From a virus: 44,452 nt of DNA. Below, piece after piece: positions 17,721 to 30,686 of the stretch (position 1 is its first letter; each line of letters begins with the position of its first letter). The translations under genes were made by a program, and so were the position numbers. The notes beneath the pieces were generated by a model. The model worked only from the letters and a program-made list of their open reading frames with translations, was not told the origin of the DNA and did no database searches. The stretch covers positions 1 through 44,452 of IMG/VR virus record IMGVR_UViG_3300029286_000077; one strand, 5' to 3'.

Positions 17721-17828
17721 TTATATATCTATATCAAGCCATTGATACTGCTAAGCGGCACATATCATAACATTACAGAGCTCTACTGTCAATGAACTGT
17801 ATATCTACCACATATCTACATCCCTATG

Positions 17829-17888
17829 GTTACCCTATAAGTTACCCTATAAGTTACCCTATAAGTTACCCCATAAGTTACCCTATCT
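17829..17888. repeat. five tandem GTTACCCTATAA units (12 bp)
   Basis: Three perfect copies, a fourth with one change (CCCC for CCCT) and a fifth that diverges in its last two bases. The core CCCTAT matches the 10-bp array. An apparent open frame through the array is a by-product of the repeat. Confidence 0.9.
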
Positions 17889-18445
17889 TATACCATAAAA
17901 TAGCAATAAGCGGGCAAAATATCCCAAAACACCTTAAAATATCCCTAAAACACCTCAAAAAGACCCCTAAAAGTGCCAAGAATGTAGGCTGGCAATGAAA
18001 TATAGTGAACCTAAATTGACCCTAAAACTAGGTTATACCTAGGACTTGCCTATTTTGGCTAATGACTACTAGGTCAGACCCAGTATAGAAAACCCTTCCT
18101 GAGGCATTCTAGGGGCTATTATTATAAACTATTGTTGGATATTTGTCAAATATAGGGGGTTTTTAGGGGTCAAAATGGGCTAAAGTCAATACTAGAGCCA
18201 ATTCTACAATCTTTTAAAAACCCTTATGGCAACAAAAGAACTCCTATCATATCATTATAATCTATCTATATTCTCAGCGGTTTTGAGTAAGCGGTTTTTG
18301 GTAGTGATTACTGGCTATTGAGATTTAAATAAGCGGTGAATTAAAGCAAAAACAAAACGAATTAAAATGCTCTTTAAAATACTATTATATAATAAAATAA
18401 TAAGCGGGCTCTTTAAGCGGTAAAAATATAAAGGTGGATAACTCT

Positions 18446-18475
18446 TTGACAAAAAAACTACCAATGTTGTAATAA
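18446..18475 (+). promoter_or_regulatory. early promoter 1
   Basis: TTGACA (18446-18451), an 18-base spacer and TAATAA (18470-18475), reading toward the early genes. The spacer has the same length as in the other phage promoters, although the -10 is less perfect. Confidence 0.5.
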
Positions 18476-18516
18476 TATCGTAAATAATCGTTATACATAG
18501 CATAAACACTATATAC

Positions 18517-18545
18517 TTGACAAAACTACTAAAACAATCTAATAT
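18517..18545 (+). promoter_or_regulatory. early promoter 2
   Basis: TTGACA (18517-18522), a 17-base spacer and TAATAT (18540-18545). Second of three closely spaced early promoters. Confidence 0.55.
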
Positions 18546-18566
18546 ATATAAAATGTTTAAAACCCA

Positions 18567-18594
18567 TTGACACGGTTCTATAACTTGCTATACT
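18567..18594 (+). promoter_or_regulatory. early promoter 3
   Basis: TTGACA (18567-18572), a 16-base spacer and TGC-TATACT (-10 at 18589-18594), giving an untranslated leader of about 38 bases before the ATG at 18639. The leader holds a TAAGCGG motif at 18613-18619, as does the leader of the 19208 promoter, and it has no SD. Confidence 0.65.
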
Positions 18595-18638
18595 TATAAT
18601 GTTATCAATTAATAAGCGGCAAAGTTTAAACAAAAAAT

Positions 18639-18833
18639 ATGTCAATAGAAAAAAATTTGATATTATATGGTATTAAAATGGGAGAAAAATATGAAGACAT
18701 AATAGTAGAAACAGACAAAATAGAAACAATAGAAAGGGCAAAAGCTTGGGCAAAAAATAATAACTACGAAAAATTAAGGTTTTGGAAATATAATGGTGGC
18801 AAGCCAGATTTTATAAAAACAATTACATTCTAG
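18639..18833 (+). CDS. first early gene, small unknown protein
   Basis: A 64-residue protein with mixed alpha/beta character (NLILYGIKMGEKYEDIIVET, then TIERAKAWAKNNNYEKLRFW). The pattern resembles small phage proteins of one alpha/beta unit that read like a host-takeover or regulatory factor, but no family is recognised. It stands alone behind three promoters and ahead of a hairpin, so it is probably strongly and immediately expressed. No SD. Confidence 0.65.
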   Translation: MSIEKNLILYGIKMGEKYEDIIVETDKIETIERAKAWAKNNNYEKLRFWKYNGGKPDFIKTITF

Positions 18834-18849
18834 TGATTTTTCGCTTTTA

Positions 18850-18876
18850 GCTATCATTAAGCGGCTTAATGGTAGC
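18850..18876 (+). terminator. 27-bp near-perfect palindrome after first early gene
   Basis: GCTA-T-CATTAAG, CGG, CTTAATG-G-TAGC forms a long hairpin directly after the first early gene, with one internal mismatch. There is no U-run. It could act as a transcript-stabilising or regulatory hairpin, or as a dyad operator. A TAAGCGG motif is at its centre. Confidence 0.5.
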
Positions 18877-18931
18877 AATAAAGCCAAAAATATTAAAACG
18901 GCTTTAAAATATGATTATAAAAACAAGGGGC

Positions 18932-18960
18932 GGCAAGTTTCCTATATATAAGGACTTGCC
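18932..18960 (+). promoter_or_regulatory. strong hairpin GGCAAGT/ACTTGCC
   Basis: GGCAAGT (18932-18938) pairs with ACTTGCC (18954-18960), with an inner CCT/AGG extension. It lies in the 246-base gap after the first early gene. Possibly a terminator or RNA element. Confidence 0.4.
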
Positions 18961-18967
18961 AATTGGG

Positions 18968-19057
18968 TTGTATCTGTTTATATGCGGTTCGGTGTTGTTC
19001 GTTGCTTGGCAGCTGGTGAGGTTCGTTAATGGTGCTATTGGAAGCGGTTTATTCTAG
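18968..19057 (+). CDS. possible 29-residue membrane peptide, TTG start
   Basis: A short frame read from TTG at 18968 gives YLFICGSVLFVAWQLVRFVN followed by GAIGSGLF, one hydrophobic span. The start codon is unusual and there is no SD, so it may be chance. It is listed because the next short frame is also a single-span peptide. Confidence 0.2.
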   Translation: MYLFICGSVLFVAWQLVRFVNGAIGSGLF

Positions 19058-19079
19058 GGTAATAATGATAAGGAGTCTT

Positions 19080-19202
19080 GTGAAAACGATGATAAAACAA
19101 AATTGGAGGGAGGGCGGAGAGTTTGCGGTGAGGATAGTAATGGCGATTGTTTTAGGGGGCTCAATTGGTTTATTACTGGTAAAGTTTTTTGAGCAGTTAT
19201 AA
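19080..19202 (+). CDS. 40-residue single-span membrane protein
   Basis: The frame starts at GTG 19080, four bases after an AAGGAG Shine-Dalgarno sequence (19070-19075), one of the few in this phage. An in-frame ATG follows at 19089. The protein has a polar N-terminus (KTMIKQNWREGGEF) and one membrane segment (IVMAIVLGGSIGLLLVKFF). Early, tiny membrane proteins often alter the host envelope or block superinfection; this is inference, as no family is recognised. Confidence 0.5.
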   Translation: MKTMIKQNWREGGEFAVRIVMAIVLGGSIGLLLVKFFEQL

Positions 19203-19207
19203 GGTTC

Positions 19208-19236
19208 TTGACTTTTTCCTAAAAATTTGCTACACT
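19208..19236 (+). promoter_or_regulatory. early promoter 4
   Basis: TTGACT (19208-19213), a 17-base spacer and TGC-TACACT (-10 at 19231-19236). A TAAGCGG motif lies in the predicted leader at 19252-19258, in the same relative place as in the leader of early promoter 3. It drives the gene at 19302. Confidence 0.65.
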
Positions 19237-19301
19237 GTCGTTAGTTAAAAATAAGCGGTCGAAAAACAAGGTTATAAATTTTTAAAAAACAACTTTAATA
19301 T

Positions 19302-19616
19302 ATGGAAAACTTTATACCATTAGATACGTTTGATGATAAGTTTACGCAGGAGAATAGAGAACACACAAAAGAGCAAACAGATATTTTGTGTAGTGCCTAT
19401 AAGAGTTTGACGGAGTTCTTGGCGGAGCTTCCTTGTGAAATAAATATAGACGGTGCCTATACGGATGTTTTAACTATTATGGAATATGCCAGAACCGGCG
19501 ACTATATAGATAGGACAAAGATAGAAAATATGGTAGCAGAAGACTATAAGCGGCAACCAAGACCAATTGAAGTAAGGGATATTGATGATAAGGATTATCC
19601 TTATGAAACTATATAA
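19302..19616 (+). CDS. early protein, unknown function
   Basis: A 104-residue acidic protein, mostly helical (TKEQTDILCSAYKSLTEFLA, then TDVLTIMEYARTGDYIDRTK). It has no metal site or membrane segment. It is preceded by its own promoter and an AT-only leader. The following membrane gene begins five bases after its stop, so the two form a small operon. Confidence 0.65.
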   Translation: MENFIPLDTFDDKFTQENREHTKEQTDILCSAYKSLTEFLAELPCEINIDGAYTDVLTIMEYARTGDYIDRTKIENMVAEDYKRQPRPIEVRDIDDKDYPYETI

Positions 19617-19620
19617 CATT

Positions 19621-19791
19621 ATGAAAAACTTTATTAAATCGTTTGCGGTGGTTGTTTTGTCAATTTTAAGGGTTTGGTTTTTACTGGTGGGCGGGCTTTT
19701 GTCAGTTGTGGGTAGCTTTTTGTCTTGGCTTGGTGGAGGAATTGTCGGTTTCGCTACTAAGTATGCGGGTTATATTAAAAAAATGATATAA
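19621..19791 (+). CDS. small Gly-rich membrane protein
   Basis: I start at ATG 19621 (MKNFIKSF), giving 56 residues; a longer frame overlaps the previous gene. Two hydrophobic segments ([19 protein letters not shown] and [16 protein letters not shown]) are rich in Gly and end in the basic tail YIKKMI. The layout resembles small holins or superinfection-exclusion proteins, but it is in the early region, away from the lysis genes. Function unresolved. Confidence 0.55.
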
Positions 19792-19792
19792 T

Positions 19793-20470
19793 ATGAAAAA
19801 CAAAATACAGATAAAATCTGGTTTGGGAGATGTATTATTTGAACTTGAAAAAGAAAATAATACCATTAAGGATACTATATTAGAGGCGGTTGGGTCTGGG
19901 GCTAATTTGGCTGGGGCTGATTTGGCTTGGGCTAATTTGGCTGGGGCTAATTTGGCTGGGGCTAATTTGGCTGGGGCTAATTTAACTAAGGCTGATTTGG
20001 CTGGGGCTTATTTGTGTAGGGCTAATTTGGCTGGGGCTGATTTGGCTTGGGCTAATTTGTGTAGGGCTAATTTGACTGGGGCTAAGGGAATACCTAAGAT
20101 ATATCAATCAAACCTGTCTATTCTTAATAATCAGGTTAACCCGTTAAGGGCATTTAAATTCTTGGATAAAGATATGGCTTCTCCAATAAATGATAAAAAA
20201 ATAACCTATGAAGTGGGAAAAGAGTATGCGAAAAAAGTAGATAAAGACAAAAAAGAAGTATGTGGAGCTGGGCTAAATGTAGCCACGCTTGAGTGGTGTA
20301 TAAGGGAAAATACACTGGGTAAGGGGGCAGTCTTTATAGAAGTGGAGTTTAATCCAAAAGATATGGTCGTCCCCTATTTTTCCGATGGTAAGTTTAGGGT
20401 AAGCAGGTTTAAAGTAGTTAGGATTGTACCAAAGAGTGAAATTAAACAAGCAATGAAAAATATAAAATAA
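19793..20470 (+). CDS. pentapeptide-repeat protein with C-terminal DUF7666-like domain
   Basis: A 225-residue protein. Residues about 37-105 are A(N/D)L(A/T/C)x pentapeptide repeats ([15 protein letters not shown]), which fold into a right-handed quadrilateral helix that can mimic DNA. The C-terminal about 110 residues (RAFKFLDKD to FKVVRIVPK) include [14 protein letters not shown] and [13 protein letters not shown], as in the domain that follows pentapeptide repeats in many phage proteins. The DNA shows matching 15-bp repeats from about 19900 to 20080, so the repeat number can vary. Function unknown; DNA mimicry or gyrase interference is only inference. Confidence 0.8.
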
Positions 20471-20476
20471 AAATAT

Positions 20477-20752
20477 ATGAAAATAGATTGTCTAAATAAA
20501 AGCGGCTTCAAGAAAACCGAGCAAGTCATTCTTGAAGACGAGAACAAGGGTGCGGTTGAACTTTGGAATGCTTTTATAGAAGTAGCCAATTCACTTAGCG
20601 ACTTTGAGGATATGGGCTGTGATATTGGTCGTTGCTATGCGGCTCTTTCTACAATACTTCACAAAGTAAATGAGCCAGTAAATAAGCGGCTGATTGCCAA
20701 GTGGCTTGACGAGGGAAACTTTGAATATAAAGGGTTAAATGATATAATATAA
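20477..20752 (+). CDS. early protein, unknown function
   Basis: A 91-residue helical protein (KGAVELWNAFIEVANSLSDF, then YAALSTILHKVNEPVNKRLI). It begins seven bases after the pentapeptide-repeat gene and ends two bases before the next gene, so it lies in a tight operon. There is no motif, signal peptide or membrane span. The leader is AT-rich without SD. Confidence 0.6.
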   Translation: MKIDCLNKSGFKKTEQVILEDENKGAVELWNAFIEVANSLSDFEDMGCDIGRCYAALSTILHKVNEPVNKRLIAKWLDEGNFEYKGLNDII

Positions 20753-20753
20753 T

Positions 20754-20969
20754 ATGAATAAATATACCTTTGCGGTTTACAAAACTACGATAGAAAGGTT
20801 TGAAGTGGTTGCGGAAGATGGCGAACAGGCAACAGATATTATATATGGCAGGGCAGAAAATGACGAAAATTGCGAGTTTGTGGGTCGAGAAGAAATGCCC
20901 GACCGCACAGAAATAATAAAAGAAACCGCCATCTTAATAGGCGACGAAGATTTATCAAATAATGAATAA
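20754..20969 (+). CDS. small acidic protein, DpnD/PcfM-like pattern
   Basis: A 71-residue protein. It begins with a beta hairpin pattern (YTFAVYKTTIERFEVVAEDG), continues with EQATDIIYGRA and ends in an acidic tail. The strand-strand-helix (VEVVA-E-EEA) order resembles the DpnD/PcfM small domain seen in mobile elements, but the match is weak. Operon position is between two small genes with 2-base gaps. Confidence 0.55.
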   Translation: MNKYTFAVYKTTIERFEVVAEDGEQATDIIYGRAENDENCEFVGREEMPDRTEIIKETAILIGDEDLSNNE

Positions 20970-20971
20970 AT

Positions 20972-21181
20972 ATGAAAATAGAATTAACAATTGCGACGGG
21001 TAGGCAGTTTGAAAATGCCCATTTGTCTGAAGAAATAGAAGCGGGTAATTTTGACGAAGCAATGGCTTTTGCGGAACAAGCGGAAGAGAAGTTTCATAAC
21101 TGTTTTATCAAAAATGATATCGTTGAGAATGTGGTGGGAAAGCCGATGGATACTGGAAAAGACGAACAATTAGAACTTTAA
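20972..21181 (+). CDS. small early protein, unknown
   Basis: A 69-residue protein with an N-terminal strand (KIELTIATGRQF), an acidic helix (GNFDEAMAFAEQAEEKFH) and a Lys/Asp-rich tail. It shares a strand-helix outline with the preceding gene and may be a distant relative. No function is recognised. It is tightly packed in the early operon. Confidence 0.55.
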   Translation: MKIELTIATGRQFENAHLSEEIEAGNFDEAMAFAEQAEEKFHNCFIKNDIVENVVGKPMDTGKDEQLEL

Positions 21182-21184
21182 TTT

Positions 21185-21364
21185 ATGAACAAAAACATAA
21201 GAAAACTAAAGAAATATATCACCAATAGGGTGGAAAGGTTTGGGGGGGTATCGGTTAGATTGGGGGGTAAAAATGACGAGGGGTGGCTCGCAAAGAAACT
21301 CGCAAGAGAAATGGGTATTAAATACACCACAGAGGGTTTCGGATATTATAGGCTATACAAGTAA
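21185..21364 (+). CDS. small basic protein, unknown
   Basis: A 59-residue gene starting at ATG 21185, three bases past the previous stop. It is basic and has an NIRKLKKYITNRVERF helix followed by GWLAKKLAREMGIKYTTEGF and a Tyr-rich end. The Gly-rich middle (FGGVSVRLGG) separates two helices. The layout could suit nucleic-acid binding, but I recognise no family. Confidence 0.55.
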   Translation: MNKNIRKLKKYITNRVERFGGVSVRLGGKNDEGWLAKKLAREMGIKYTTEGFGYYRLYK

Positions 21365-21375
21365 ATCATAAAATT

Positions 21376-21939
21376 ATGACTATTGACGAAATTGTATTAG
21401 AATGGTGTAACACAGACGACGGTCTTCACCAAAGAAAAATTGGTCGCTACAATGCGAGTGAAATTTCTTCTATCAAGAAAGGATACTTGAAACCAAAAGA
21501 TTTCTTTACTAAAAAGAAAATAGACTTATTGGGTGCCAAGCGTATTTCAAGCGGTAGAATACTAGAAACTGGGTTAGAGCAAATGCTCTTGGACTTGAAA
21601 ATACCACACGACTATAATCCAAAATATGAAATAAAGATAGATGATTTCGTTGTGGTTTGTAAACCAGATTTTATTTTTGAGAACTTTGTGATTGAAACTA
21701 AGGCACCTGCTACGGATAGGTCTTGGGAATACTTGTTTGACAGTTATAAATATCAACTTCAAGCAGAACACCTTGTAACTGGTAAAGATGTTTATCTGGG
21801 AAGATTTTGTTTAGATGGCGGAAACCAATTTAATGTGCGGTTTAGAAAATATCTTGCGAGTGACAAGGTCTGGGAAGAAGCGGTTGAGATTTTGCGTAAG
21901 TTCGACAAAAAACTAAAAGAACTCTATGGACAAGGATAA
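21376..21939 (+). CDS. RecB/YqaJ-like PD-(D/E)XK nuclease
   Basis: A 187-residue protein with the core of the viral recombinase nuclease family. Glu64 is in SGRILETG, Asp98 in CKPDF, and Glu107 and Lys109 in VIETKAP; YKYQLQAEHLVTG follows at about residues 124-136, the usual Q-box helix. These residues bind two metal ions for double-strand exonuclease activity. It probably resects ends for single-strand annealing recombination or replication, in partnership with the SSB-like protein two genes downstream. It overlaps the next gene by 14 bases. Confidence 0.85.
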   Translation: MTIDEIVLEWCNTDDGLHQRKIGRYNASEISSIKKGYLKPKDFFTKKKIDLLGAKRISSGRILETGLEQMLLDLKIPHDYNPKYEIKIDDFVVVCKPDFIFENFVIETKAPATDRSWEYLFDSYKYQLQAEHLVTGKDVYLGRFCLDGGNQFNVRFRKYLASDKVWEEAVEILRKFDKKLKELYGQG

Positions 21940-22363
21940 CTACACTAATTACAATACCCTCTTAATGGGAATGGTGGGAGGAATTAAATACGACCTATGT
22001 CATATGTATTTGGGATATAAGCAGTATCACTCATTTGAAAGAAGAGCGGCGATAATAAACTTTATACTAACCTACGAAAACTATTTTAACTTTGATAATC
22101 ACCATATATTAGTAGAGTGGTTCTATGAACTATGTCCTAAGGTAAATCAAAAGTTAGAGCAGTTAGCAATGAGTTTCCTCTGTTCCTATATTCTTTGGAA
22201 ACTTGGAATAAAAGACAAACCCAGTAACTTTGCGATTGCCGTAGCCAAAAGAACCATAGAATACTGTGGGCATACTGACTTTCTTGATGGGCTAATGTCT
22301 TTAGTGGGCAACTCTAAAGTTAAACTCCCACCACTTGACTACGGTATATCAAATGTGCTATAA
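21926..22363 (+). CDS. helical early protein partnered with nuclease, unknown
   Basis: A 145-residue protein, helical, rich in Tyr/Phe and His (NYTNYNTLLMGMVGGIKYDL, then QKLEQLAMSFLCSYILWKLG). It overlaps the nuclease gene by 14 bases. Its last codons contain the next promoter: the -10 box TATAAT supplies the stop codon TAA. Its position between nuclease and SSB suggests a recombination accessory role, but no annealing-protein motif is visible. Confidence 0.6.
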   Translation: MDKDNYTNYNTLLMGMVGGIKYDLCHMYLGYKQYHSFERRAAIINFILTYENYFNFDNHHILVEWFYELCPKVNQKLEQLAMSFLCSYILWKLGIKDKPSNFAIAVAKRTIEYCGHTDFLDGLMSLVGNSKVKLPPLDYGISNVL

Positions 22364-22364
22364 T
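22335..22364 (+). promoter_or_regulatory. promoter for SSB-like gene
   Basis: TTGACT (22335-22340), an 18-base spacer and TGC-TATAAT (-10 at 22359-22364), then TAAGTATATC. It lies in the end of the upstream gene, with the -10 overlapping its stop codon. The leader is about 20 bases, AT-rich, with no SD. The flanks match the promoters at 23784 and 24423. Confidence 0.85.
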
Positions 22365-22390
22365 TAAGTATATCAATTAAAGAATATAAT

Positions 22391-22921
22391 ATGCAATCTC
22401 TCAAGGATATGTTAGCGGAAAGTGGTATGTCTGATGGCGGAAAGTCGGAATCGTTTAAGATTAAGGAGGGAACAAATAAGATTAGGGTTTGTTCTGATTT
22501 TATCTTTCACGAGAGTTCTTTTAAGGGAACAAAAAATAAGAAGTTTGTTTGTTGGGTTATAGACAGGGCAGATGGAAAAGTAAAACCATACTTTGCACCC
22601 TATACAATAGTTAAGGCATTGTCTAAGTATCAAGAAGACGAAGAGTATGCTTGGGAAGAATTTCCAATGACAAGAGACTTGATTATTGACGCAAAAGATG
22701 CAGGAACTAAAGAAGTAGATTATCAGTGTCATCTAAGTTTAAAAGAAAGTAAACTTACTGATGTTGAATTGGCAGACTTGGAACAAAAGGGTTCTATTAA
22801 AGACCTTATAGAGAGAATTAAAGAGAAACAAGAAAAAGAAAATCCAACCGAGCCGGTTATTGACGCAGATGATGAACCAAGTGATTCTGATTTAGATAAT
22901 TTAAATCCATTGATGGACTAA
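22391..22921 (+). CDS. single-stranded DNA-binding protein (probable)
   Basis: A 176-residue protein. The N-terminal about 130 residues form a mixed beta domain with aromatic residues (KKFVCWVIDRADG, KPYFAPYTIVKALSKY, YAWEEFPMTRDLII). The C-terminus is a disordered, strongly acidic tail ending DSDLDNLNPLMD, the type SSB proteins use to recruit partners. Its own promoter and its position beside the RecB-like nuclease fit a replication/recombination SSB. An OB fold is inferred from the pattern, not proven. The start overlap TAATG couples it to the next gene. Confidence 0.6.
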   Translation: MQSLKDMLAESGMSDGGKSESFKIKEGTNKIRVCSDFIFHESSFKGTKNKKFVCWVIDRADGKVKPYFAPYTIVKALSKYQEDEEYAWEEFPMTRDLIIDAKDAGTKEVDYQCHLSLKESKLTDVELADLEQKGSIKDLIERIKEKQEKENPTEPVIDADDEPSDSDLDNLNPLMD

Positions 22922-23136
22922 TGACTAAGCGGATTGAAATAACGGATAAAGATTTGTTAAGAATAGAAAAGAGCGGAGATTGCCTCCGCTTCTTTTTTTC
23001 ATCTCACTCTCGCCCACACTTAGAGAATATTGTTACTTACCATAAAGGGAAATACTCCTGTGACTGTGGTGCAGCAATTCTTAATGGAAATCAAAATTGC
23101 GTTCACATAAAATATTTAAAAAGAACCACCATTTAG
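22921..23136 (+). CDS. SWIM-type zinc-finger protein
   Basis: A 71-residue protein ending in YSCDCGAAILNGNQNCVHIKYL, the CxC-n-CxH pattern of a SWIM zinc finger (about residues 46-66). SWIM domains occur in DNA repair and recombination factors, where they bring partners together. It overlaps the SSB-like gene (TAATG), so the two are made together and probably act together. Its stop lies inside the bidirectional terminator. Confidence 0.65.
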   Translation: MTKRIEITDKDLLRIEKSGDCLRFFFSSHSRPHLENIVTYHKGKYSCDCGAAILNGNQNCVHIKYLKRTTI

Positions 23137-23146
23137 GTGGTTTTTG
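23124..23146. terminator. bidirectional terminator between convergent genes
   Basis: AACCACC (23124-23130), loop ATTTA and GGTGGTT (23136-23142), followed by T's on the plus strand and A/T-rich sequence on the minus side. The stops of the plus gene (23136) and minus gene (23133) both lie in the hairpin. Confidence 0.85.
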
Positions 23147-23411
23147 GTTTGTGTTCGTAATACCAACAAACCCTCTCTCTGTCTTTCCAGGTTTTAGACA
23201 TTTCTGCGGTTCGTTTTTCGCTTTCTTTCTGAAACTTTCGTTGTGATTTATTAAACCACCGCATATCTACTTTTCCATTTTCTGAAATCTGTATCTTTCT
23301 ATTATTTAAAAAAGCAAAGACGTCATTGTCAATGATTCTTAAATATTTTATTTTTTGATTTCCTATAATATTCTTATAAGAAAGTTCTTTTGTATTAAAT
23401 AAATCTATCAT
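23133..23411 (-). CDS. lone minus-strand protein in the early region
   Basis: I start at ATG 23411 (MIDLFNTKEL), giving 92 residues; an upstream in-frame ATG at 23471 is possible but lies in the structured leader. The protein has short beta segments (KYLRIIDNDVFAFLNNRKIQ) and a Lys/Arg/Glu-rich helix (RKFQKESEKRTAEMSKTWKD). It ends in CWYYEHKPKTT. It is the only minus gene within the early region and has its own promoter and a leader of over 300 bases. This arrangement suits a regulator, but I recognise no DNA-binding fold. Confidence 0.6.
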   Translation of the reverse strand: MIDLFNTKELSYKNIIGNQKIKYLRIIDNDVFAFLNNRKIQISENGKVDMRWFNKSQRKFQKESEKRTAEMSKTWKDRERVCWYYEHKPKTT

Positions 23412-23718
23412 GATTTGTTTGTATTCTAACACCTTTAGGAAACACCCGCCTATGGGACTTTTCCTCCCCATTACTGGGTGTGGAATAGAATACTATGTAT
23501 AAATTACGAGAACTCGGTCAGCGGTAATTCTATATGTTGATATCCTCCGTTCCTTTCGGAACACTGGCGGTCACCAGTCGCAAGTCCGTAGCGTTGCTGG
23601 TTCATCGATTTAATAAGGATAGAGATTTCTCTCCTTTAGGTTTTACACCCCCCGTGCCATAACATTAACGGGTCTTGTATATTGCTTATACCAACACTGT
23701 AATTTAATTTTAACTTAT
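23412..23718 (-). ncRNA. long structured leader or non-coding RNA
   Basis: About 300 bases between the minus promoter and the gene start fold well on the minus strand. Elements are GTTCC-GAAA-GGAAC (23562-23549, GNRA loop only on this strand), ACTGG/CCAGT (23563-23578), CCCGT/ACGGG (23651-23672) and AAGG-AGAG/CTCT-CCTT (23615-23636). The density of hairpins and the GNRA loop suggest a functional RNA such as a cis-regulatory leader. A GGGGAGGAAAAGTCC stretch near 23470 resembles RNase P CR-I by chance only. Confidence 0.5.
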
Positions 23719-23724
23719 AAGTTA

Positions 23725-23754
23725 AGTATATCACAAAGTATATAGTGTTGTCAA
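23725..23754 (-). promoter_or_regulatory. promoter for lone minus gene
   Basis: TTGACA (23754-23749), an 18-base spacer and TGA-TATACT (-10 at 23730-23725). It shares CTTGACAACACTATA with the lysis promoter. Its -35 forms the palindrome TGTCAAG-CCCCC-CTTGACA with a plus-strand TTGACA at 23762-23767. Confidence 0.8.
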
Positions 23755-23783
23755 GCCCCCCTTGACAAGTATTTCCCAATCAC

Positions 23784-23813: not shown

Positions 23814-23840
23814 TAAGTTATATAAATAAAATAATAGTAA

Positions 23841-24035: not shown

Positions 24036-24402
24036 AAATGAAAAAGTATTTGTAAATAAGGAGAAACCTAAGAATGAAATGTATTCCCTGATTTACTTTT
24101 ACTTGCGATTACAAAACCAAGAACCCAATCAGGTTTTAGCGAAACGCTACTTAAGGGATATGTCTGATTTGCTTAAACTGGGAACACCCGCAGAGATAAA
24201 ACTTAGATGTATAGAGATAAAGAAGTATGCGGAAAAACAAGGTATCAGTTGGTCGTTGAACTTTGTTATTAAGAGTTGGGGAAAATCTTTTAAATCCAAA
24301 GACGAACAAGCAGAAGAACTTTATTGGAAAAAGTTTCAAGCCGAGAGTGATGCGTTTGATAAGAAATATGAAATTGGAAAATACTCAAAACCGCTTAAAT
24401 AA
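24016..24402 (+). CDS. early protein, helical, unknown
   Basis: I start at ATG 24016 (MVNLFNENEK), giving 128 residues; a longer frame starts within the previous gene. The protein is helical and basic-acidic (EMYSLIYFYLRLQNQEPNQV, then AEIKLRCIEIKKYAEKQGIS). The pattern with paired helices and a QxPNxV turn could resemble replication accessory factors, but no family was found. It is the last gene before the leaderless HNH gene. Confidence 0.6.
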   Translation: MVNLFNENEKVFVNKEKPKNEMYSLIYFYLRLQNQEPNQVLAKRYLRDMSDLLKLGTPAEIKLRCIEIKKYAEKQGISWSLNFVIKSWGKSFKSKDEQAEELYWKKFQAESDAFDKKYEIGKYSKPLK

Positions 24403-24422
24403 TTTTATTAAAACAAGCACAC

Positions 24423-24452: not shown

Positions 24453-24458
24453 TAATAT

Positions 24459-25070
24459 ATGAAATGGACAAAGGAAATGGCGAGGGAATACCAAAAGAAA
24501 TGGAAGGAAGGCTGGAAGGAAGGCCATAGAAAAATTGTTAATAAATATTCTCGAGATTGGCAAAAAACCGAAAAGGGTAAGGCGTATTTAAAAATACTCG
24601 CCGCAACCCCAAATAGAAAGGCTACTCGCAAGAAATATTCTCAATCCCAACGGGGAAAAGAAGTCCTAAAAAGATATAAAATGTGTCACCCAGAATACGG
24701 CAAGGAGTATAGAAAAAAATATTATCAACTAAATAAAGAAAAATATACGGAGTATAGAAAAACACATTTAATAAAAAATCCAGGATTAAATTCTCATTAT
24801 GTAAGTATTTATAGGGCAAGAAAACTCGGTGCGGTCGGAACGCACACCATCGGGGAATGGGAATTACTTAAGAAACAGTATGGATATACTTGTCCGTGTT
24901 GCGGGAAAAGTGGACCAAGTATTAAACTTACAGAAGACCATATAGTCCCACTTAGTAAGGGTGGTTCGAACTATATTGAAAATATACAACCACTGTGTAA
25001 GTCGTGTAATAGTAAGAAACATACGCAAACGGTCGTATATGATAATAAGGTTAGCTCTTTACAATTTTAA
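24459..25070 (+). CDS. HNH endonuclease, leaderless
   Basis: A 203-residue protein. The N-terminal about 130 residues are Lys/Arg/Tyr-rich helices (KKWKEGWKEGHRKIVNKYSR, KEYRKKYYQLNKEKYTEYRK), likely for DNA binding. The C-terminal HNH domain of the McrA type has CPCCG, then EDHIVPLSKGGSNYIENIQP and CKSCNSKK, two zinc pairs around a DHIVPLSKGG centre. The ATG coincides with the predicted transcription start. Probable homing endonuclease or nicking nuclease. Confidence 0.85.
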   Translation: MKWTKEMAREYQKKWKEGWKEGHRKIVNKYSRDWQKTEKGKAYLKILAATPNRKATRKKYSQSQRGKEVLKRYKMCHPEYGKEYRKKYYQLNKEKYTEYRKTHLIKNPGLNSHYVSIYRARKLGAVGTHTIGEWELLKKQYGYTCPCCGKSGPSIKLTEDHIVPLSKGGSNYIENIQPLCKSCNSKKHTQTVVYDNKVSSLQF

Positions 25071-25079
25071 AAGATACTT

Positions 25080-25838
25080 ATGAAAAGAGAAAAACTCCCT
25101 ATGGGAGAATCTATCAAGGGGGTGCCCGCAATGAAAAACGGAGGAATAATGCCTATTCACCGTTTGAAGAAAGACGACTGGATGTGGTTATTCACGCATC
25201 ACTGCAAACACGGTCACAGATACACCGAGCACTATTCGTGTTATCTGGCGGACTATCCGAATATGGTTCATCCGTCAGCACTGGTTGAGAAAGTTGGATT
25301 TCTCGATATTGAGACTTCCAACCTTGATGCCAACTTTGGTATAATTCTTACTTATTGTATCAAGGTGGGCGGAAAGAAAACCATTCTCACTGGGCAGGTC
25401 AACGGAAAGGATATTGCGAAATACCCTTCCGACAAAACGGACACGAGAGTTGTTCAATCGTTGGTAACGGATATGTTGAAGTTTGACCGCATAGTTACTC
25501 ACTACGGGTCACGCTTTGACATACCCTTTATCAGAACAAGGGCTCTCTATGACGGGGTAGATTTTCCCCAGTTTGGGTCAATCCGCCAGGACGATACCTG
25601 GATTATGGCTCGCCACAAACTCAAACTGAACTCCAACCGCTTGGAGACAATCGCCAGAACCATTCTTGGTTCTTCCGATAAAACCCATCTGGAGTTCAAG
25701 TATTGGATTGCGGCTACTCGTGGAGATGAAAAGGCTATTGCCTATATTCTCCAACACAACAAGTTCGATGTCACGGACTTGGAAAAGATTTGGCTCAAAC
25801 TTCGTGGATTTTCACGCTTCACTTGTACAAGTATCTAA
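25080..25838 (+). CDS. DEDD-type 3'-5' exonuclease (RNase H-like)
   Basis: A 252-residue protein of the DnaQ/YprB-like fold. Catalytic Asp76 and Glu78 lie in FLDIETS; Asp147 in HYGSRFDIPF; and the last motif HNKFDVTDLE has Asp230. A Cys/His cluster (HHCKHGHRYTE, about 40-50) could bind zinc. No polymerase domain is attached. It probably trims DNA ends or proofreads with the host polymerase. The codon use is markedly more GC-rich than its neighbours, which suggests recent transfer. It lies nine bases after the HNH gene. Confidence 0.8.
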   Translation: MKREKLPMGESIKGVPAMKNGGIMPIHRLKKDDWMWLFTHHCKHGHRYTEHYSCYLADYPNMVHPSALVEKVGFLDIETSNLDANFGIILTYCIKVGGKKTILTGQVNGKDIAKYPSDKTDTRVVQSLVTDMLKFDRIVTHYGSRFDIPFIRTRALYDGVDFPQFGSIRQDDTWIMARHKLKLNSNRLETIARTILGSSDKTHLEFKYWIAATRGDEKAIAYILQHNKFDVTDLEKIWLKLRGFSRFTCTSI

Positions 25839-25846
25839 ACTGTTAT

Positions 25847-25869
25847 GCGGGCTCAGAATAAAAGCCCGC
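25847..25869 (+). terminator. hairpin GCGGGCT/AGCCCGC after exonuclease gene
   Basis: A 7-bp GC-rich stem (25847-25853 with 25863-25869) and a 9-base loop lie ten bases past the exonuclease stop. The downstream sequence TTAAATG has only a weak T-run, so it is a likely but not ideal terminator. Confidence 0.6.
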
Positions 25870-25887
25870 TTAAATGTAATTAAAACT

Positions 25888-26112
25888 ATGCTTATATCAC
25901 AAGAAGAAATAGAGAATATTGTAAAAAGGGTAATCAATACCTTTACTGTAAACTTTCTTAGATGGGATATTGAAAGCACTGGATTTGGAGATGTAATTGA
26001 ACAAATTGTTAGAAGAATTGTTGCCCTTGAAGATTATCTTGATATTCATTATGAAGAAAACACCACCAATGGTTATGTAAAGAATAAAAAGGTCGGTAAA
26101 AATAAATCTTAA
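25888..26112 (+). CDS. small protein, unknown
   Basis: I start at ATG 25888 (MLISQEEIEN), giving 74 residues; a longer frame runs back into the exonuclease gene. The protein has a helical N-terminus (EIENIVKRVINTFTVNFLRW), an acidic middle and a basic Lys/Asn-rich end. It is AT-rich like the main phage genes, unlike the GC-rich genes on both sides. Function unknown. Confidence 0.5.
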   Translation: MLISQEEIENIVKRVINTFTVNFLRWDIESTGFGDVIEQIVRRIVALEDYLDIHYEENTTNGYVKNKKVGKNKS

Positions 26113-26368
26113 CTTGGTTATTGGGTAAGTATGCGGACGAGTTTAAAACCGCAGTTGTAGATGGATTGTTAAAGAAAGAATAATAAGCGGTTTGTGGTGG
26201 GGGTAAGTTCATAGTATTGTATATCCGCAGTAGGGGAACACGATATAAATACGCGGCAAGAACGGACACCTTGAAACGAAAGTTCGGTGTCAGTAGTTGG
26301 TTCGAATCCAACCCCCCAAACTTTTTATCTGGTAGTTAGCAGCACATTACAAAAAAAGGAGGTGAAGT
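26113..26368 (+). other. 256-base gap with tRNA T-arm-like element
   Basis: No gene is seen. A GTTGG-TTCGAAT-CCAAC T-arm (26296-26312) is followed by CCCCCAA, which can pair with GTGGGGG at 26197-26203. The 124 bases between do not fold into a standard D-arm and anticodon arm. A GACACC/GGTGTC stem (about 26265-26291) with GAAC/GTTC crossing it suggests a small structured RNA or tRNA remnant. The strong SD of the next cassette begins at about 26357. Confidence 0.4.
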
Positions 26369-26557
26369 ATGTCTCGCAAGATTACCAAGTCTTGGGATTA
26401 CTGGTTCCTAACCACAAAGGGTAATGCCGTGTGGGTCAATGTAAAGACTGGGAACATTCTCGTGGAGAGAGATAACCATCTGCTCTACGAGCCGAGCAAG
26501 GAAGAGGCAGATGAGATAACTCTCAATGCCATCTTCAATGCCTATAAGGAGGACTAA
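26369..26557 (+). CDS. foreign-cassette paralogue 1
   Basis: A 62-residue protein with an excellent SD (GGAGGTG, about seven bases before ATG). It contains DYWFLTTKGNAVWVNVKTGN then LVERDNHLLYEPSKEEADEI, a short beta-rich unit. The same outline recurs in the next two genes: W/Y-F, V-V/Y-N, V-E-D, LxEPSKEEA. It is GC-rich relative to the phage. The next SD, AAGGAGG, overlaps its last codons. Function unknown. Confidence 0.65.
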   Translation: MSRKITKSWDYWFLTTKGNAVWVNVKTGNILVERDNHLLYEPSKEEADEITLNAIFNAYKED

Positions 26558-26558
26558 G

Positions 26559-26771
26559 ATGAACGCCAAAGACAAGCACTGGTTGTATCAGTTCACGAAC
26601 AAAGCAGGAAAAAGAGTCTATTACAACTGCAAAGAAAATCTCTGGGCAGTTGAGATAGATTATGCCCAACTCATTGAGCCGACCATCAAAGAGACTGCCG
26701 AGATTCTCAATTACATCGTTGAAACTCAGATGGACGCTTGGGGAGAACTCTTTGGGGAGGGGGAGAGATGA
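26559..26771 (+). CDS. foreign-cassette paralogue 2
   Basis: I start at ATG 26559, six bases after AAGGAGG, giving 70 residues. The sequence KHWLYQFTNKAGKRVYYNCK to VEIDYAQLIEPTIKETAEIL follows the same pattern as the previous gene (W-F, V-Y-N, V-E-D, LIEPTIKE). The ATGA overlap with the next gene shows coupled translation. Function unknown. Confidence 0.65.
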   Translation: MNAKDKHWLYQFTNKAGKRVYYNCKENLWAVEIDYAQLIEPTIKETAEILNYIVETQMDAWGELFGEGER

Positions 26772-27034
26772 AAGATACAAGCTATAAGCCTGTTCTCTTT
26801 CTTCCTGAACACGGTGTCTGGGTGGTCGTCGGAAACGAAACCAGGCAAACTCTCGTTATGGAGAGTGATGGCTTCGTTAGAGAAATGACCACAAACGAAC
26901 TCAACGAGTATGCCTTCATACAGGAGGACTACCAATGGGTAAGAGAAACAGAACATCTACAAAGGCATCAAATCATCACCGCCTACCTCGCTCGAAGGGG
27001 GGAAAGACTAACGAGTTCAACTGTGTTATGTTGA
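26768..27034 (+). CDS. foreign-cassette paralogue 3, stop codon lost
   Basis: The start at 26768 overlaps the previous stop as ATGA. The 88-residue frame has YKPVLFLPEHGVWVVVGNET then VMESDGFVREMTTNELNEYA, matching the two preceding genes. In paralogue 1 the segment before the next start reads GGAGGACTAAG with an in-frame stop; here the matching segment reads GGAGGACTACC and the frame runs on for about 30 codons into the next gene in another frame. The tail (after QEDYQW) is therefore probably a readthrough. Confidence 0.55.
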   Translation: MKDTSYKPVLFLPEHGVWVVVGNETRQTLVMESDGFVREMTTNELNEYAFIQEDYQWVRETEHLQRHQIITAYLARRGERLTSSTVLC

Positions 27035-27210
27035 ACCCTGAAGTTCACAAACTTTGGCATCAGATTTTCTCTAATCTGACACCTACAGATATCCAAGTAG
27101 AAATCTGTAGGGTGTTCTATGGGTTTGACGAGGGTCAGATGAGAGATGTCCGAGTCGAGAACTTTCTTGATATGGTCTCATCTATCACCGAAGCCAAAGA
27201 CAGGTGCTAA
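26935..27210 (+). CDS. HNH-like protein of the SD cassette
   Basis: A 91-residue protein with an SD (GGAGG, about seven bases before the start). It contains NHHRLPRSKGGKTNEFNCVM and EVHKLWHQIF, a minimal HNH outline of the NHH-PRSKGG-N-H type seen in short phage HNH proteins without zinc pairs. It overlaps paralogue 3 by 100 bases in another frame. It may be a nuclease, although typical zinc cysteines are absent. This gene ends the GC-rich cassette. Confidence 0.65.
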   Translation: MGKRNRTSTKASNHHRLPRSKGGKTNEFNCVMLNPEVHKLWHQIFSNLTPTDIQVEICRVFYGFDEGQMRDVRVENFLDMVSSITEAKDRC

Positions 27211-27230
27211 CTTCCTTTTTTAAACAGTTC

Positions 27231-27438
27231 GGCTACCCTGTATAAAAGTAGCCACTTATATGCGGGTTTCCAGCGAAAGTAGCAACAAGTGCTTAAGCCA
27301 TAGGCGAACTAAGTAACCTATCCAGCGTTGGGAAGTAATGCATACTTCATTCAAATGGACTGTTTAGCTAAAAGTTTTCCCGCAAGGGAATTGCAGTCCT
27401 ATCTAAACCGCTACTGGCGGAGCAACACCGCTACCCGC
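27231..27438 (+). ncRNA. multi-hairpin structured RNA with pseudoknot
   Basis: An outer helix GCGGGT (27262-27267) / ACCCGC (27433-27438) encloses ATAGG/CCTAT (27300-27321), GAAGTA/TACTTC (27332-27348), TTCCC-GCAA-GGGAA (27377-27390, GNRA loop) and GCGG/CCGC (27417-27431). GGACT (27357-27361) pairs with AGTCC (27395-27399), and GTTTAG (27362-27367) with CTAAAC (27403-27408), a crossing pair. GGCTAC/GTAGCC (27231-27253) lies just upstream. No known class is recognised. It precedes a small membrane gene and a HigA-like gene, so it may be a cis-regulator or free RNA. Confidence 0.6.
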
Positions 27439-27450
27439 AACTAAATTATT

Positions 27451-27567
27451 ATGACAACAGAAGAATACCATTCTGCGAATATAAGATTAAACCGCTTCAA
27501 GATTTTATTAAGTGTGGTTATTTTAATAATTGGAATTGCTAATTTAATTTTACAAATTATAAAATGA
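27451..27567 (+). CDS. 38-residue membrane peptide
   Basis: A short frame with a polar N-terminus (TTEEYHSANIRLNRFK) and one hydrophobic span (ILLSVVILIIGIANLILQII). It follows the structured RNA by 12 bases and overlaps the next gene as ATGA, so coupling is likely. Small membrane peptides beside toxin-antitoxin-like genes can be toxins; this is speculation, as nothing else supports it. Confidence 0.5.
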   Translation: MTTEEYHSANIRLNRFKILLSVVILIIGIANLILQIIK

Positions 27568-27821
27568 AATATAAAAATAGAATGAACCAATATAAACCAG
27601 ATTATGCAATACCGCCAGGAGAAACAATTAAGGATATTCTTTGTGATGTCTTTGGAATAGGAGAAGGAAAGTTGGAGAAACTTCTAAATGGAGATATTCG
27701 CATAACCAAAAGGATTGCCAAAAACATTGTAAACCTGTTCGGTGGAGTTGGCGAACAATTTTGGATAAATGCAGATAAGAATTATATTAAGACCAAAAAG
27801 AAACTAAATAAAATAAAATGA
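27564..27821 (+). CDS. HigA-like helix-turn-helix regulator
   Basis: An 85-residue protein with PPGETIKDILCDVFGIGEGK then LEKLLNGDIRITKRIAKNIV and EQFWINADKNY. The order PGE-IKD, LLNG-ITK and FWI matches HigA/XRE-type antitoxins, whose HTH lies at about residues 20-55. No HigB toxin neighbour is visible; the flanking genes are a membrane peptide and a 62-residue protein. It could be an orphan antitoxin or a transcription regulator. Coupled by ATGA to both neighbours. Confidence 0.75.
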   Translation: MKYKNRMNQYKPDYAIPPGETIKDILCDVFGIGEGKLEKLLNGDIRITKRIAKNIVNLFGGVGEQFWINADKNYIKTKKKLNKIK

Positions 27822-28006
27822 AATGGTTTTATGCGGTCGTAAAAATTAAGAACAAATATCACATCTGTGAGATTTATTGTGACGAGGATGGAAAGCCAGC
27901 AGAGAAACCACTTTATTCTATAGAAGATAGAAACTTCTCTATAGTGGGGACAAAAATACCCCAATGGATACTTAAGGATTTATTTGAAAACCATTTAAAA
28001 TTATAA
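27818..28006 (+). CDS. small protein next to HigA-like regulator
   Basis: A 62-residue protein with a beta-rich N-terminal part (WFYAVVKIKNKYHICEIYCD) and a DEDGKPAEKP turn, then a short helix. It overlaps the regulator gene by four bases. It is smaller than HigB or RelE toxins and lacks their basic core, so a toxin call is not supported. Function unknown. Confidence 0.55.
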   Translation: MKWFYAVVKIKNKYHICEIYCDEDGKPAEKPLYSIEDRNFSIVGTKIPQWILKDLFENHLKL

Positions 28007-28015
28007 AATGAAACT

Positions 28016-29080
28016 ATGACAAATTACGGAATAAATCGAGTTAAGGATAGTAAAAAACAGTGGAAAGCTGGAGCAGAAACAGGAATTACCTATAAAGAAA
28101 ACCTACCCACAGGAGATTGGACCCCCTACCTGCCTAAAGACGAAAAACAAAGTGGGGATATAGACGCTCTTGGTTGTGTTAGTTTTTCAGCACTTAACTG
28201 TATAGAAACTCAATTGAAATATCTTTTAGAAAGTGGCAAAGTTCCGCAGTCTACGATAGATTGGTTAAAGGACAGTGGTTATTATGACGGATTAGAAGTT
28301 AATTTTTCGGATAGGGCACTTGCCAAGATGTCTGGAACTCAGACAATGCACGGTAACTGGCCACCGAATGTTTGGGAAGCCGCAAGGGTAAATGGACTTC
28401 TACCCGAGAAAGACTGGCTATCTGATTTCTCTTCTTATGAGAATTACTATGCGGAAATTCCTGCCGTCTTACAAGTAAAAGCAAAAGAGTTTCTAAAATA
28501 CTTTAGTATAAAATACCAATGGATTATTGTCGGACAACAAGCAGACGACAGTGGAGTTAAAGACGCTATCGGGTTATTTCTAAAACAATCCCCGTTACAA
28601 ACGTGTTCTCCGGTTTGTCCGTCTTGGTTTTCTCCATTAGTAATTCCCTGCGGAAAAAGAAACGCTGACCACGCCACAATGATTTACCGCATAGTCAAAG
28701 ATGTGGCTATCTATATTTTTGACCACTATTCTGTATTTAGAAAGGTATTGTCCTATCTATACCCAACCGATTTCGTGATGCAGGGAATTATAGAACCCAT
28801 TGTCGCCACAGAAACAGTCGTGCCGCACTATTTTCTCAACACGGACCTGCGATATGGAAATAGAAATGAAGAGGTAAAATGGTTACAAGAAGAGTTAATA
28901 TATCTTGGATTGCTTAAGAGTGGCTTGAATACTGGCTACTATGGAAACCTGACCGCAGAAGCAGTTAAGAAGTTTCTTATCAAATACAAGGTAACGAGTT
29001 TGTTTTGGATTAACCTTAATTGCGGAAAGTTTGTGGGTAAATTAACGAGAACCAAGTTAAATCAGATTTTTGCCGCTTAA
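28016..29080 (+). CDS. papain-like cysteine peptidase with peptidoglycan-binding domain
   Basis: A 354-residue protein. The N-terminal peptidase (about 45-245) has Cys54 in DALGCVSFSAL, His219 in NADHATMIYRI and Asp236 in IYIFDHYS, the order of a papain-type fold. The C-terminal part (about 280-350) has GNRNEEVKWLQEELIYLGLL and YYGNLTAEAVKKFLIKY, a PG_binding_1 repeat. Together these suggest a cell-wall endopeptidase, perhaps an endolysin. It lies in the early strand, far from holin and lysozyme. Its stop overlaps the NinG start. Confidence 0.75.
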   Translation: MTNYGINRVKDSKKQWKAGAETGITYKENLPTGDWTPYLPKDEKQSGDIDALGCVSFSALNCIETQLKYLLESGKVPQSTIDWLKDSGYYDGLEVNFSDRALAKMSGTQTMHGNWPPNVWEAARVNGLLPEKDWLSDFSSYENYYAEIPAVLQVKAKEFLKYFSIKYQWIIVGQQADDSGVKDAIGLFLKQSPLQTCSPVCPSWFSPLVIPCGKRNADHATMIYRIVKDVAIYIFDHYSVFRKVLSYLYPTDFVMQGIIEPIVATETVVPHYFLNTDLRYGNRNEEVKWLQEELIYLGLLKSGLNTGYYGNLTAEAVKKFLIKYKVTSLFWINLNCGKFVGKLTRTKLNQIFAA

Positions 29081-29466
29081 TGTCTAAGGATATTTCTAAA
29101 TTAAAAAAAGATGTCTGGACTCTGGTCTCCAAGTATGTCCGTAATAAGTATGCGGTCAAGGGGTGCGATATCTGTTATACCTGCGGAATTAAAAAGCCAA
29201 TTAAAGAAATGCAGGCAGGACACGGAATTGGTGGTAGAAGTAATGCAATCATCTTTGACCTTGACATATTAAAACCGCAGTGCTATGGCTGTAATATTAT
29301 GAAAAGTGGAAACTATGATGTCTTCCACGAGAAGTTAATTAAAGAACACGGATTAAAATGGATGGAAAAGAAATGGAAATTAGCAAAAACCACTAAGCAG
29401 TTTACTGTTACAGAATTAACCGCTTTGAAAGAACATTATAAAGAACTATTAAAACAATGGGAATGA
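29080..29466 (+). CDS. ninG: NinG-like recombination nuclease
   Basis: A 128-residue protein with Cys32/Cys35 in CYTCG, AGHGIGGRSNAIIFDLDILK (His48) and Cys68/Cys71 in PQCYGCNIMKSGN. This is the pattern of the lambda NinG (Rap) family, which acts on branched DNA and promotes recombination. It shares the TAATG junction with the peptidase gene. With endonuclease VII at 30243 and the RecB-like nuclease, it forms the phage's recombination set. Confidence 0.85.
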   Translation: MSKDISKLKKDVWTLVSKYVRNKYAVKGCDICYTCGIKKPIKEMQAGHGIGGRSNAIIFDLDILKPQCYGCNIMKSGNYDVFHEKLIKEHGLKWMEKKWKLAKTTKQFTVTELTALKEHYKELLKQWE

Positions 29467-29711
29467 AACAAACCTATACTACAATAGCCGAAGCACTAAG
29501 AAAAAACGAAAGTCGCGTATCTAACTTGGTGGTTTTGGGTGAATTAGTTATAGGTTCAAATCTCTCAAAGGAGGGAATTCGCAAGTTGCTCCGCCTATAT
29601 CGTAAGACGGATTATGACAATGTGGATAAAGAAAAAATAGTAGAGGATTTCTATAAAAAGGGACAACAAATCCGCCCAAAGAAGAATACCTCAAAAACGG
29701 GTCTTTTCTGA
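29463..29711 (+). CDS. small basic protein after NinG, unknown
   Basis: I start at ATG 29463, which overlaps the NinG stop as ATGA (an ATG at 29457 is also in frame). The protein has 82 residues. A helix-turn-helix-like stretch (TTIAEALRKNESRVSNLVVL, about 5-24) and another helix (EGIRKLLRLYRKTDYDNVDK) are followed by a basic tail. It could be a DNA-binding partner of NinG. No close family is recognised. Confidence 0.6.
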   Translation: MKQTYTTIAEALRKNESRVSNLVVLGELVIGSNLSKEGIRKLLRLYRKTDYDNVDKEKIVEDFYKKGQQIRPKKNTSKTGLF

Positions 29712-29785
29712 CTTGTGATAGCAAAATAAGCATTTTGAGAATGTAGTATTCAAGCACCTTCCCAACGGTCAACTTTACGGAATTT

Positions 29786-29809
29786 GCATTCTAAGGGGGT
29801 CAAAATGGG
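29786..29809 (+). repeat. joined copy of two origin-region motifs
   Basis: GCATTCTAAGGG (29786-29797) matches the 11-bp repeats at 17531-17563, and GGGGTCAAAATGGG (29796-29809) matches 18166-18179. They lie together in the gap at 29712-29863 after the NinG operon, so the same motifs border both ends of the early region. Confidence 0.7.
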
Positions 29810-29863
29810 TGGGGGTGCCTGTTTATACCTTTTATGAATAACCACCCCTTAAAATGTCAATAT

Positions 29864-30007
29864 ATGAAGAAAACCACCCAAGAATATATCCTAACCCACA
29901 AATCCACCGTCAAAGAACTCCGAGAGTTAAGGAAACATATTAAGCGGATTTTAAAAGATTATAAAAAAACCTTTGAATTATTAACCAATGAAACCAATAC
30001 TAAATAA
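29864..30007 (+). CDS. 47-residue helical protein
   Basis: A short frame from ATG 29864 with a basic helix-rich sequence (KKTTQEYILTHKSTVKELRE, then ILKDYKKTFELLTNETN). It overlaps the next gene by 20 bases. A TAAGCGG motif encodes its KHIKRI part. No function is recognised. Confidence 0.5.
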   Translation: MKKTTQEYILTHKSTVKELRELRKHIKRILKDYKKTFELLTNETNTK

Positions 30008-30200
30008 ACGCACAAAAAAACCATTCACCATAAAAGACCTACCAGAGATAGTCTCTTGGGTTTATATCAAAGAACACCTCTATATCAAGGATTATAAGCG
30101 GTTTTTAAAATGGATGGAAGGACAAACGGTTACAGAGAATGGTGTTTATTCGTGGGACTTTGAAAGGTTCTTGTTGGGTAGAAATCCATTTAGATACTAG
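29988..30200 (+). CDS. small early protein, unknown
   Basis: A 70-residue protein, basic and aromatic (KPILNKRTKKPFTIKDLPEI, then RFLKWMEGQTVTENGVYSWD). It overlaps the previous small gene and ends before a terminator hairpin. No motif was recognised. Its position just upstream of endonuclease VII suggests a DNA-metabolism accessory, without direct support. Confidence 0.6.
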   Translation: MKPILNKRTKKPFTIKDLPEIVSWVYIKEHLYIKDYKRFLKWMEGQTVTENGVYSWDFERFLLGRNPFRY

Positions 30201-30203
30201 AAC

Positions 30204-30221
30204 ACACCTTAAAGGTGTTTT
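30204..30221 (+). terminator. terminator hairpin ACACCT/AGGTGT
   Basis: ACACCT (30204-30209) pairs with AGGTGT (30213-30218), followed by TTTTG. It lies four bases after the preceding stop and 22 bases before the endonuclease VII gene. A short but regular rho-independent terminator. Confidence 0.65.
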
Positions 30222-30242
30222 GTAGTCCAAATTTTAAAGGAT

Positions 30243-30686
30243 ATGAAAAAACAGACAAAGGCAGAATACGACAAACAAAGGCATAAAGAGTGGAAACTAA
30301 ATAATGTTCTTAGGGTCTCTGAATACGGAAAGGAATATTATAAAAAGAATAGAGAAAAAATACTGGCATACGGTAAGGAATATTCAAAAACTCCTCATAA
30401 AATTAGGTATCAGGAAAATCATAAATTGTTAAAGAAATACGGAATTTCTATAGAACAACGAGACCAAATAATAGAATGTCAGCACGGATTATGCCCAATT
30501 TGTAATAAACCACTTATGAATAAAAGCGGTATTTTTGTCGACCACAATCACGACACGGGTAAAGTGAGGGGGGTTCTTTGTAGAAAGTGTAATCTTGCCA
30601 TTGGATTATTGGGTGAAGATGTGGAAACGTTAGAAAGGGGATTTCAATATCTAATGTACGAATTAGTCCATTCTAACACAAAATAG
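30243..30686 (+). CDS. recombination endonuclease VII
   Basis: A 147-residue protein. The C-terminal domain (about 60-140) has LLKKYGISIEQRDQIIECQH, Cys84/Cys87 in CPICNKPL, catalytic DHNHDTGKVRGVLCRKCN (Asp100, His101, His103; Cys113/Cys116) and IGLLGEDVETLERGFQYL. This is the T4 gp49 (endonuclease VII) family, which resolves branched DNA before packaging. The N-terminal 55 residues are basic. It is the last early gene and ends in two terminators. Confidence 0.9.
   Translation: MKKQTKAEYDKQRHKEWKLNNVLRVSEYGKEYYKKNREKILAYGKEYSKTPHKIRYQENHKLLKKYGISIEQRDQIIECQHGLCPICNKPLMNKSGIFVDHNHDTGKVRGVLCRKCNLAIGLLGEDVETLERGFQYLMYELVHSNTK

Follow-up and report, generated by a model that had tools for sequence, protein, structure and literature searches.

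The 44,452-base window analysed here, which is the entire IMG/VR virus record IMGVR_UViG_3300029286_000077, carries 30 copies of the heptamer TAAGCGG, seven of them co-oriented in a gene-free region. Judged by its sequence statistics TAAGCGG is a candidate phage-borne Chi-like word, and the best single explanation, to which we give a probability of about 0.4, is that it is a Chi site of the phage's host, of the type read by AddAB. Its ends join in one open frame, an 837-residue minus-strand frame bridging positions 1–2000 and 43945–44452, so the window probably represents the whole genome of a tailed phage in circularly permuted form. The late genes run leftward on both sides and the early genes rightward at 18.6–30.7 kb, with a gene-free stretch at 17.03–18.64 kb, inside which the GC-skew minimum falls, dividing the terminase genes from the early genes.

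Exact counting gave 22 copies of TAAGCGG on the plus strand and eight on the minus strand (as CCGCTTA), in agreement with the roughly 22 and 8 reported in an earlier note on this DNA. The expected plus- and minus-strand numbers are 2.7 and 1.0 under a second-order Markov model and 5.6 and 2.1 under a third-order model, and for both strands together the expectation is 3.4–4 copies at low order and 7–8.6 at third order. When the word's own copies are masked, a fourth-order model expects 3.9 copies against the 30 observed, and of 968 frequent 7-mers TAAGCGG is the most over-represented; a fourth-order block model without masking expects about 15, because the copies then feed their own background. 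The earlier note had named a Markov background as a check on the excess, and similar counts are not reproduced by the second-order, third-order or masked fourth-order models. The coding copies were compared with a codon null in which synonymous codons are permuted within each gene and none of twelve avoided palindromes is allowed above its observed count. Under this null the 15 coding copies stand against 2.64 ± 1.5 (maximum 8 in 1,711 samples), the largest deviation of any coding 7-mer (z 7.2). TAAGCGG is the top 7-mer under three nulls (the constrained synonymous shuffle, the intergenic Markov model and the self-masked fourth-order Markov model), and in this phage the short non-palindromic word is over-represented beyond composition by some 4–8 fold, depending on the model.

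All seven letters of TAAGCGG matter. The base that follows TAA+GCG is G in 30 instances and A or T in one, against 225 and 217 in all other contexts (Fisher P = 7e-8), and the last-position variants TAAGCGA, TAAGCGC and TAAGCGT amount to one copy in total. At the first position T is replaced by G, A and C 12, 6 and 3 times, respectively; CAAGCGG (3 copies) and AAAGCGG lie near chance. Palindromic tetramers are strongly avoided in the phage (observed/expected: GATC 0/188, GCGC 2/100, CGCG 10/75, CCGG 38/182, CATG 44/196 and GGCC 40/176), and since they are avoided GCG is pushed toward GCGG, which occurs 255 times against 135 expected, so that a false Chi could result. The heptamer might then be a by-product of composition, palindrome avoidance driving GCG to GCGG and the AT-rich background supplying TAA, with no protein reading the word; TATGCGG and TCTGCGG, which are likewise in excess, fit such an origin. 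However, the excess of TAAGCGG persists at about 4-fold under the third-order model, which includes tetramer avoidance, at 5.7-fold under the constrained codon shuffle and at 7.7-fold under the masked fourth-order model, the frequency of G after GCG is 54% overall as opposed to 30 of 31 after TAA+GCG, and one or two copies of TAAGCGG are all that is present in relatives, G008 and G307 for example, whose avoidance is comparable. Palindrome avoidance accounts for only part of the GCGG excess, and composition is part of the TAAGCGG excess but not the whole; as the sole cause it is disfavoured and rather improbable. Extreme avoidance of 4-base palindromes is also observed in relatives L010, L017, L027, L036 and others, the avoided set differing by relative, and these sets are probably a record of the hosts' restriction systems.

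The copies are densest in the gene-free divergent region, where the seven plus-strand words at 17752, 17907, 18288, 18330, 18401, 18414 and 18613 lie within about 870 bases (17752–18619), separated by irregular spacings of 155, 381, 42, 71, 13 and 199 bases. None of 5,000 uniform random placements matched this arrangement in a scan statistic, and the cluster described earlier at 17.75–18.62 kb is thus confirmed in its positions and real. The copy at 18288 belongs to AGCGGTTTTGAGTAAGCGG (18276–18294, plus strand), in which a second AGCGG lies 13 bases upstream of TAAGCGG and part of which recurs at 24391 on the minus strand, while 18401–18420 (plus strand) contains two TAAGCGG words 13 bases apart. 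The last word of the cluster (18613–18619) is positioned 19 bases past the -10 hexamer of an early promoter at 18567–18594. Two plus-strand copies follow at 18858–18864, where the word centres a stable inverted repeat (approximately 18850–18876; -18.1 kcal/mol, z -4.5), and at 19252–19258, in the leader downstream of a promoter-like site at 19208–19236; the copies attributed previously to two early leaders (18613 and 19252) and to a palindrome centre are indeed located there. The plus-strand run begins at 16719–16725, antisense to coding sequence beside the terminase small subunit gene, and extends through early coding copies at 19547–19553 and 20683–20689 to that at 22926–22932, the last of 13 consecutive plus copies. 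The interval 16.7–23.0 kb therefore holds 13 plus and no minus copies and the rest of the genome nine plus and eight minus, so the plus-strand bias is local, not genome-wide. Intergenic copies number 12 on the plus and three on the minus strand, and coding copies are eight sense and seven antisense. The earlier statement that the plus bias is independent of the direction of transcription finds no support in these distributions. That coding copies are split almost evenly between the two orientations points to a signal carried by double-stranded DNA and not by RNA or protein.

Outside this interval the plus-strand copies are found at 2926–2932 (antisense, at a late gene end), 15234–15240 (antisense, terminase large subunit gene), 30095–30101 (early coding), 37270–37276, 38643–38649 and 41186–41192 (all antisense, late coding), and in intergenic DNA at 6200–6206, 26184–26190 and 29941–29947. 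The minus-strand copies lie at 15502–15508 (sense, terminase large subunit gene), 24391–24397 (upstream of the gene at 24459), 29073–29079 (antisense, at an early gene end), 34766–34772, 40901–40907 and 42226–42232 (late coding), and in intergenic DNA at 25866–25872 and 31613–31619. This distribution bears on a second explanation, in which a site-specific binding protein other than AddAB, of phage or host (an origin initiator, an early repressor or a nucleoid protein), would use the cluster as its main assembly site and the scattered copies as secondary sites. Such a protein would suit the concentration of intergenic copies in the divergent region with the GC-skew minimum, the several near-perfect sigma70-type promoters there, the two copies just past early promoters, the copy in the stable hairpin and the 13-base pairs at 18276–18294 and 18401–18420. 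On the other hand, the cluster spacings are unlike iterons in their irregularity, only one copy lies within 60 bases downstream of a strong promoter match (at least 10/12), and the coding copies, ten of the fifteen in late genes and mostly far from the control region, are in about six-fold excess, those in late genes being left unexplained by it. We consider a binder of this kind unlikely, ranking it ahead of composition as sole cause. A phage-encoded protein reading TAAGCGG genome-wide in place of a host enzyme is a further possibility.

A host Chi site is the most likely single reading because of the likeness of TAAGCGG to known AddAB words, the lambdoid-like size and place of the excess, the lack of a match to Gam or Abc2 and the presence of junction-processing genes. 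The B. subtilis AddAB Chi, AGCGG (PMC5959072), lies wholly inside TAAGCGG, although the unit selected in the phage has seven letters rather than five. The S. aureus Chi, GAAGCGG (PMC5959072, PMC11442139), is also seven bases long and shares six of them with the phage word, AAGCGG being common to both and the first base being G instead of T. GAAGCGG itself occurs 12 times in the phage against about 2.6 expected from the second-order model, with 10 coding copies against 5 under the codon null. The known Chi words GCTGGTGG and GCGCGTG, counted in the same genome, displayed no notable excess. Lambdoid phages that lack a RecBCD inhibitor have an excess of Chi, with a median observed/expected ratio of 2.5, the median reaches 4.76 in sequenced phages without their own recombinases, and lambdoid Chi sites gather in the part of the genome that separates the replication genes from the terminase (PMC3784561). 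The present phage resembles them in the size of the excess, in the place of the cluster and in a genome of about 45 kb; its cluster similarly lies between the terminase small subunit gene and the early module, which is not proved to be a replication module. For the lambdoid phages, by contrast, both the host and its Chi are known (PMC3784561). No match to a Gam or Abc2 inhibitor was obtained among the scanned proteins (Pfam, PHROG), many early genes being of unknown function. Two early genes point to junction processing, one for a NinG/Rap family junction endonuclease (29080–29466, plus strand; Pfam NinG E 2.4e-12, PHROG 5034 E 4.3e-17) and one for an endonuclease VII of the junction resolvase family (30243–30686, plus strand; Pfam E 7.4e-22, PHROG 2914).

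Under the host Chi reading, an AddAB-type helicase-nuclease of the host would recognise TAAGCGG as its recombination hotspot word, and the phage would have accumulated the word since it appears to have no inhibitor of the enzyme. Having entered where the DNA is broken or cut, and on meeting the word in the right orientation, the enzyme would stop degradation and pass a 3' single strand to a recombinase, so that the phage DNA would survive and may recombine into concatemers. The sequence itself shows an excess of the exact word in intergenic DNA and on both strands of coding DNA, the cluster, its position between the terminase and early modules and no recognised inhibitor; we infer the reading by AddAB, an enrichment of the word in the host genome and a protection of DNA ends by the cluster.

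Several observations weigh against this interpretation. Chi acts in one orientation only. If the arrangement of lambda is mirrored here, minus-strand copies would be required for a packaging cut made beside the terminase genes (about 17 kb), whereas 13 of 13 copies at 16.7–23.0 kb are plus. The orientation relative to the packaging end thus looks opposite to that of the lambdoid phages, and end protection would work only for an end situated rightward of the cluster. TATGCGG occurs 23 times against about 4 expected, evenly across both strands and absent from the cluster, and its excess may reflect a looser recognition (TA[AT]GCGG) or another force. Among 22 related viral records whole-record counts of TAAGCGG are 0–7; the word does not rank high in the relatives examined and has no comparable excess there, and the top words of six relatives reach only z 4.5–5.3 under the same palindrome-constrained codon shuffle, against 7.2 in this phage. 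The earlier note had named absence of the motif from related phages as evidence against its proposal, and scarcity is largely what these counts reveal. Low counts in relatives are compatible with a host-specific word, yet they lend it no support. In genomes sampled from three bacterial phyla, those to which metagenome-assembled genomes with stray viral relatives belong, none of the genomes being known as the host, no clear excess was observed and TAAGCGG was at most a few-fold more frequent than the reversed word. The host search gave no host. As first proposed, the idea of Chi-like host sites is partly supported: the excess, clustering, likeness to AddAB words and lambdoid precedent hold, the strand bias does not hold genome-wide, and the relatives examined have no comparable excess.

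The host search covered several kinds of evidence. A virion-protein profile run against genome contigs returned four stray contigs in unrelated metagenome-assembled genomes and, in a phylum with small genomes, more matches on small contigs. When the phage DNA was compared with 285 genomes of Omnitrophota and 380 of the small-genome phylum, only weak matches resulted, and no CRISPR-like repeats were found at four of the weak-match places examined. No near matches were identified among phage records, the early proteins had no relatives in IMG/VR, and no relevant use of TAAGCGG appeared among the papers that a literature search listed. A triple-motif scan of IMG/VR was set aside, since its hits were mostly repeats with spacings divisible by three, as is usual where a protein is repetitive.

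The translation and promoter signals of the phage also bear on the host. Almost no gene has a Shine-Dalgarno sequence, and the same holds for relatives L037, L042, L045, L051, L054 and L056. Sites of sigma70 type are enriched (11 against 2.1 expected), and the enrichment looked for in promoters of Bacteroidota type was not found. The Shine-Dalgarno absence and the sigma70 enrichment together suggest a host lineage without Shine-Dalgarno use, whose promoters are not of the Bacteroidota type. Pasteurellaceae phages, in contrast, have Shine-Dalgarno leaders, which counts against another origin of the word, that of a DNA-uptake sequence gained from a Pasteurellaceae host. The uptake word of A. pleuropneumoniae type, ACAAGCGGT, has the AAGCGG core in common with TAAGCGG and differs in its flanking letters. 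This earlier alternative is unsupported and very improbable, as the phage contains ACAAGCGGT on neither strand (0+0), two plus-strand and no minus-strand copies of AAGTGCGGT (2+0), one copy of ACAAGCGG and only the three copies of CAAGCGG. A small-gene island at 26285–26957 displays the Shine-Dalgarno leaders AAGGAGGTG and AGGAGGAC, unlike the remaining genes, and was probably imported from a genome that uses Shine-Dalgarno sequences; it is preceded by a tRNA-like 3' half, GTTGGTTCGAATCCAAC, which ARAGORN and Rfam did not call.

Other features of the window complete the gene layout. On the packaging side of the cluster, the terminase small subunit gene lies at 16220–16681 (minus strand; PHROG 4102, E 2.5e-15), and the large subunit is encoded in one frame with a C-terminal HNH domain at 13362–15701 (minus strand; PHROG 979, E 1.8e-19; PHROG 15471, E 4.4e-17). 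Additional HNH genes are located at 9992–10600, 15711–16220 and 24459–25070, with a weak one at 26935–27210. A weak match to a single-strand DNA binding protein is found at 22391–22921 (plus strand; PHROG 1607, E 4.6e-4). The 187-residue early protein at 21376–21939 appears by eye to be PD-(D/E)xK nuclease-like (KPD...ETK...QLQAEH); a family search returned no match for it and its single-sequence fold was uninformative (predicted local distance difference test, pLDDT, 34). The gene-free region also includes, at 17344–17900, unrelated short tandem repeats with units of 10, 10, 11 and 12 bases, and locus L036, which is 99.96% identical, matches the window only as far as 17767, inside the tandem-repeat region. 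Metagenome 3300028581 contains a contig of 99.96% identity. Searches of Rfam gave no hit above threshold.

Few bacteria have a known Chi word. It is plausible, at slightly lower odds than the host Chi reading itself, that TAAGCGG is a Chi word not described before, belonging to a lineage of uncultured bacteria with phages that do not use Shine-Dalgarno sequences, a word that would be readable only through the phage. If TAAGCGG is a host Chi site, the Chi words of hosts that have not been cultured could be deduced from phage genomes, with the palindrome-controlled codon null as a generally applicable method. In that case an environmental clade would, moreover, come under the rule that host Chi accumulates in phages lacking nuclease inhibitors.

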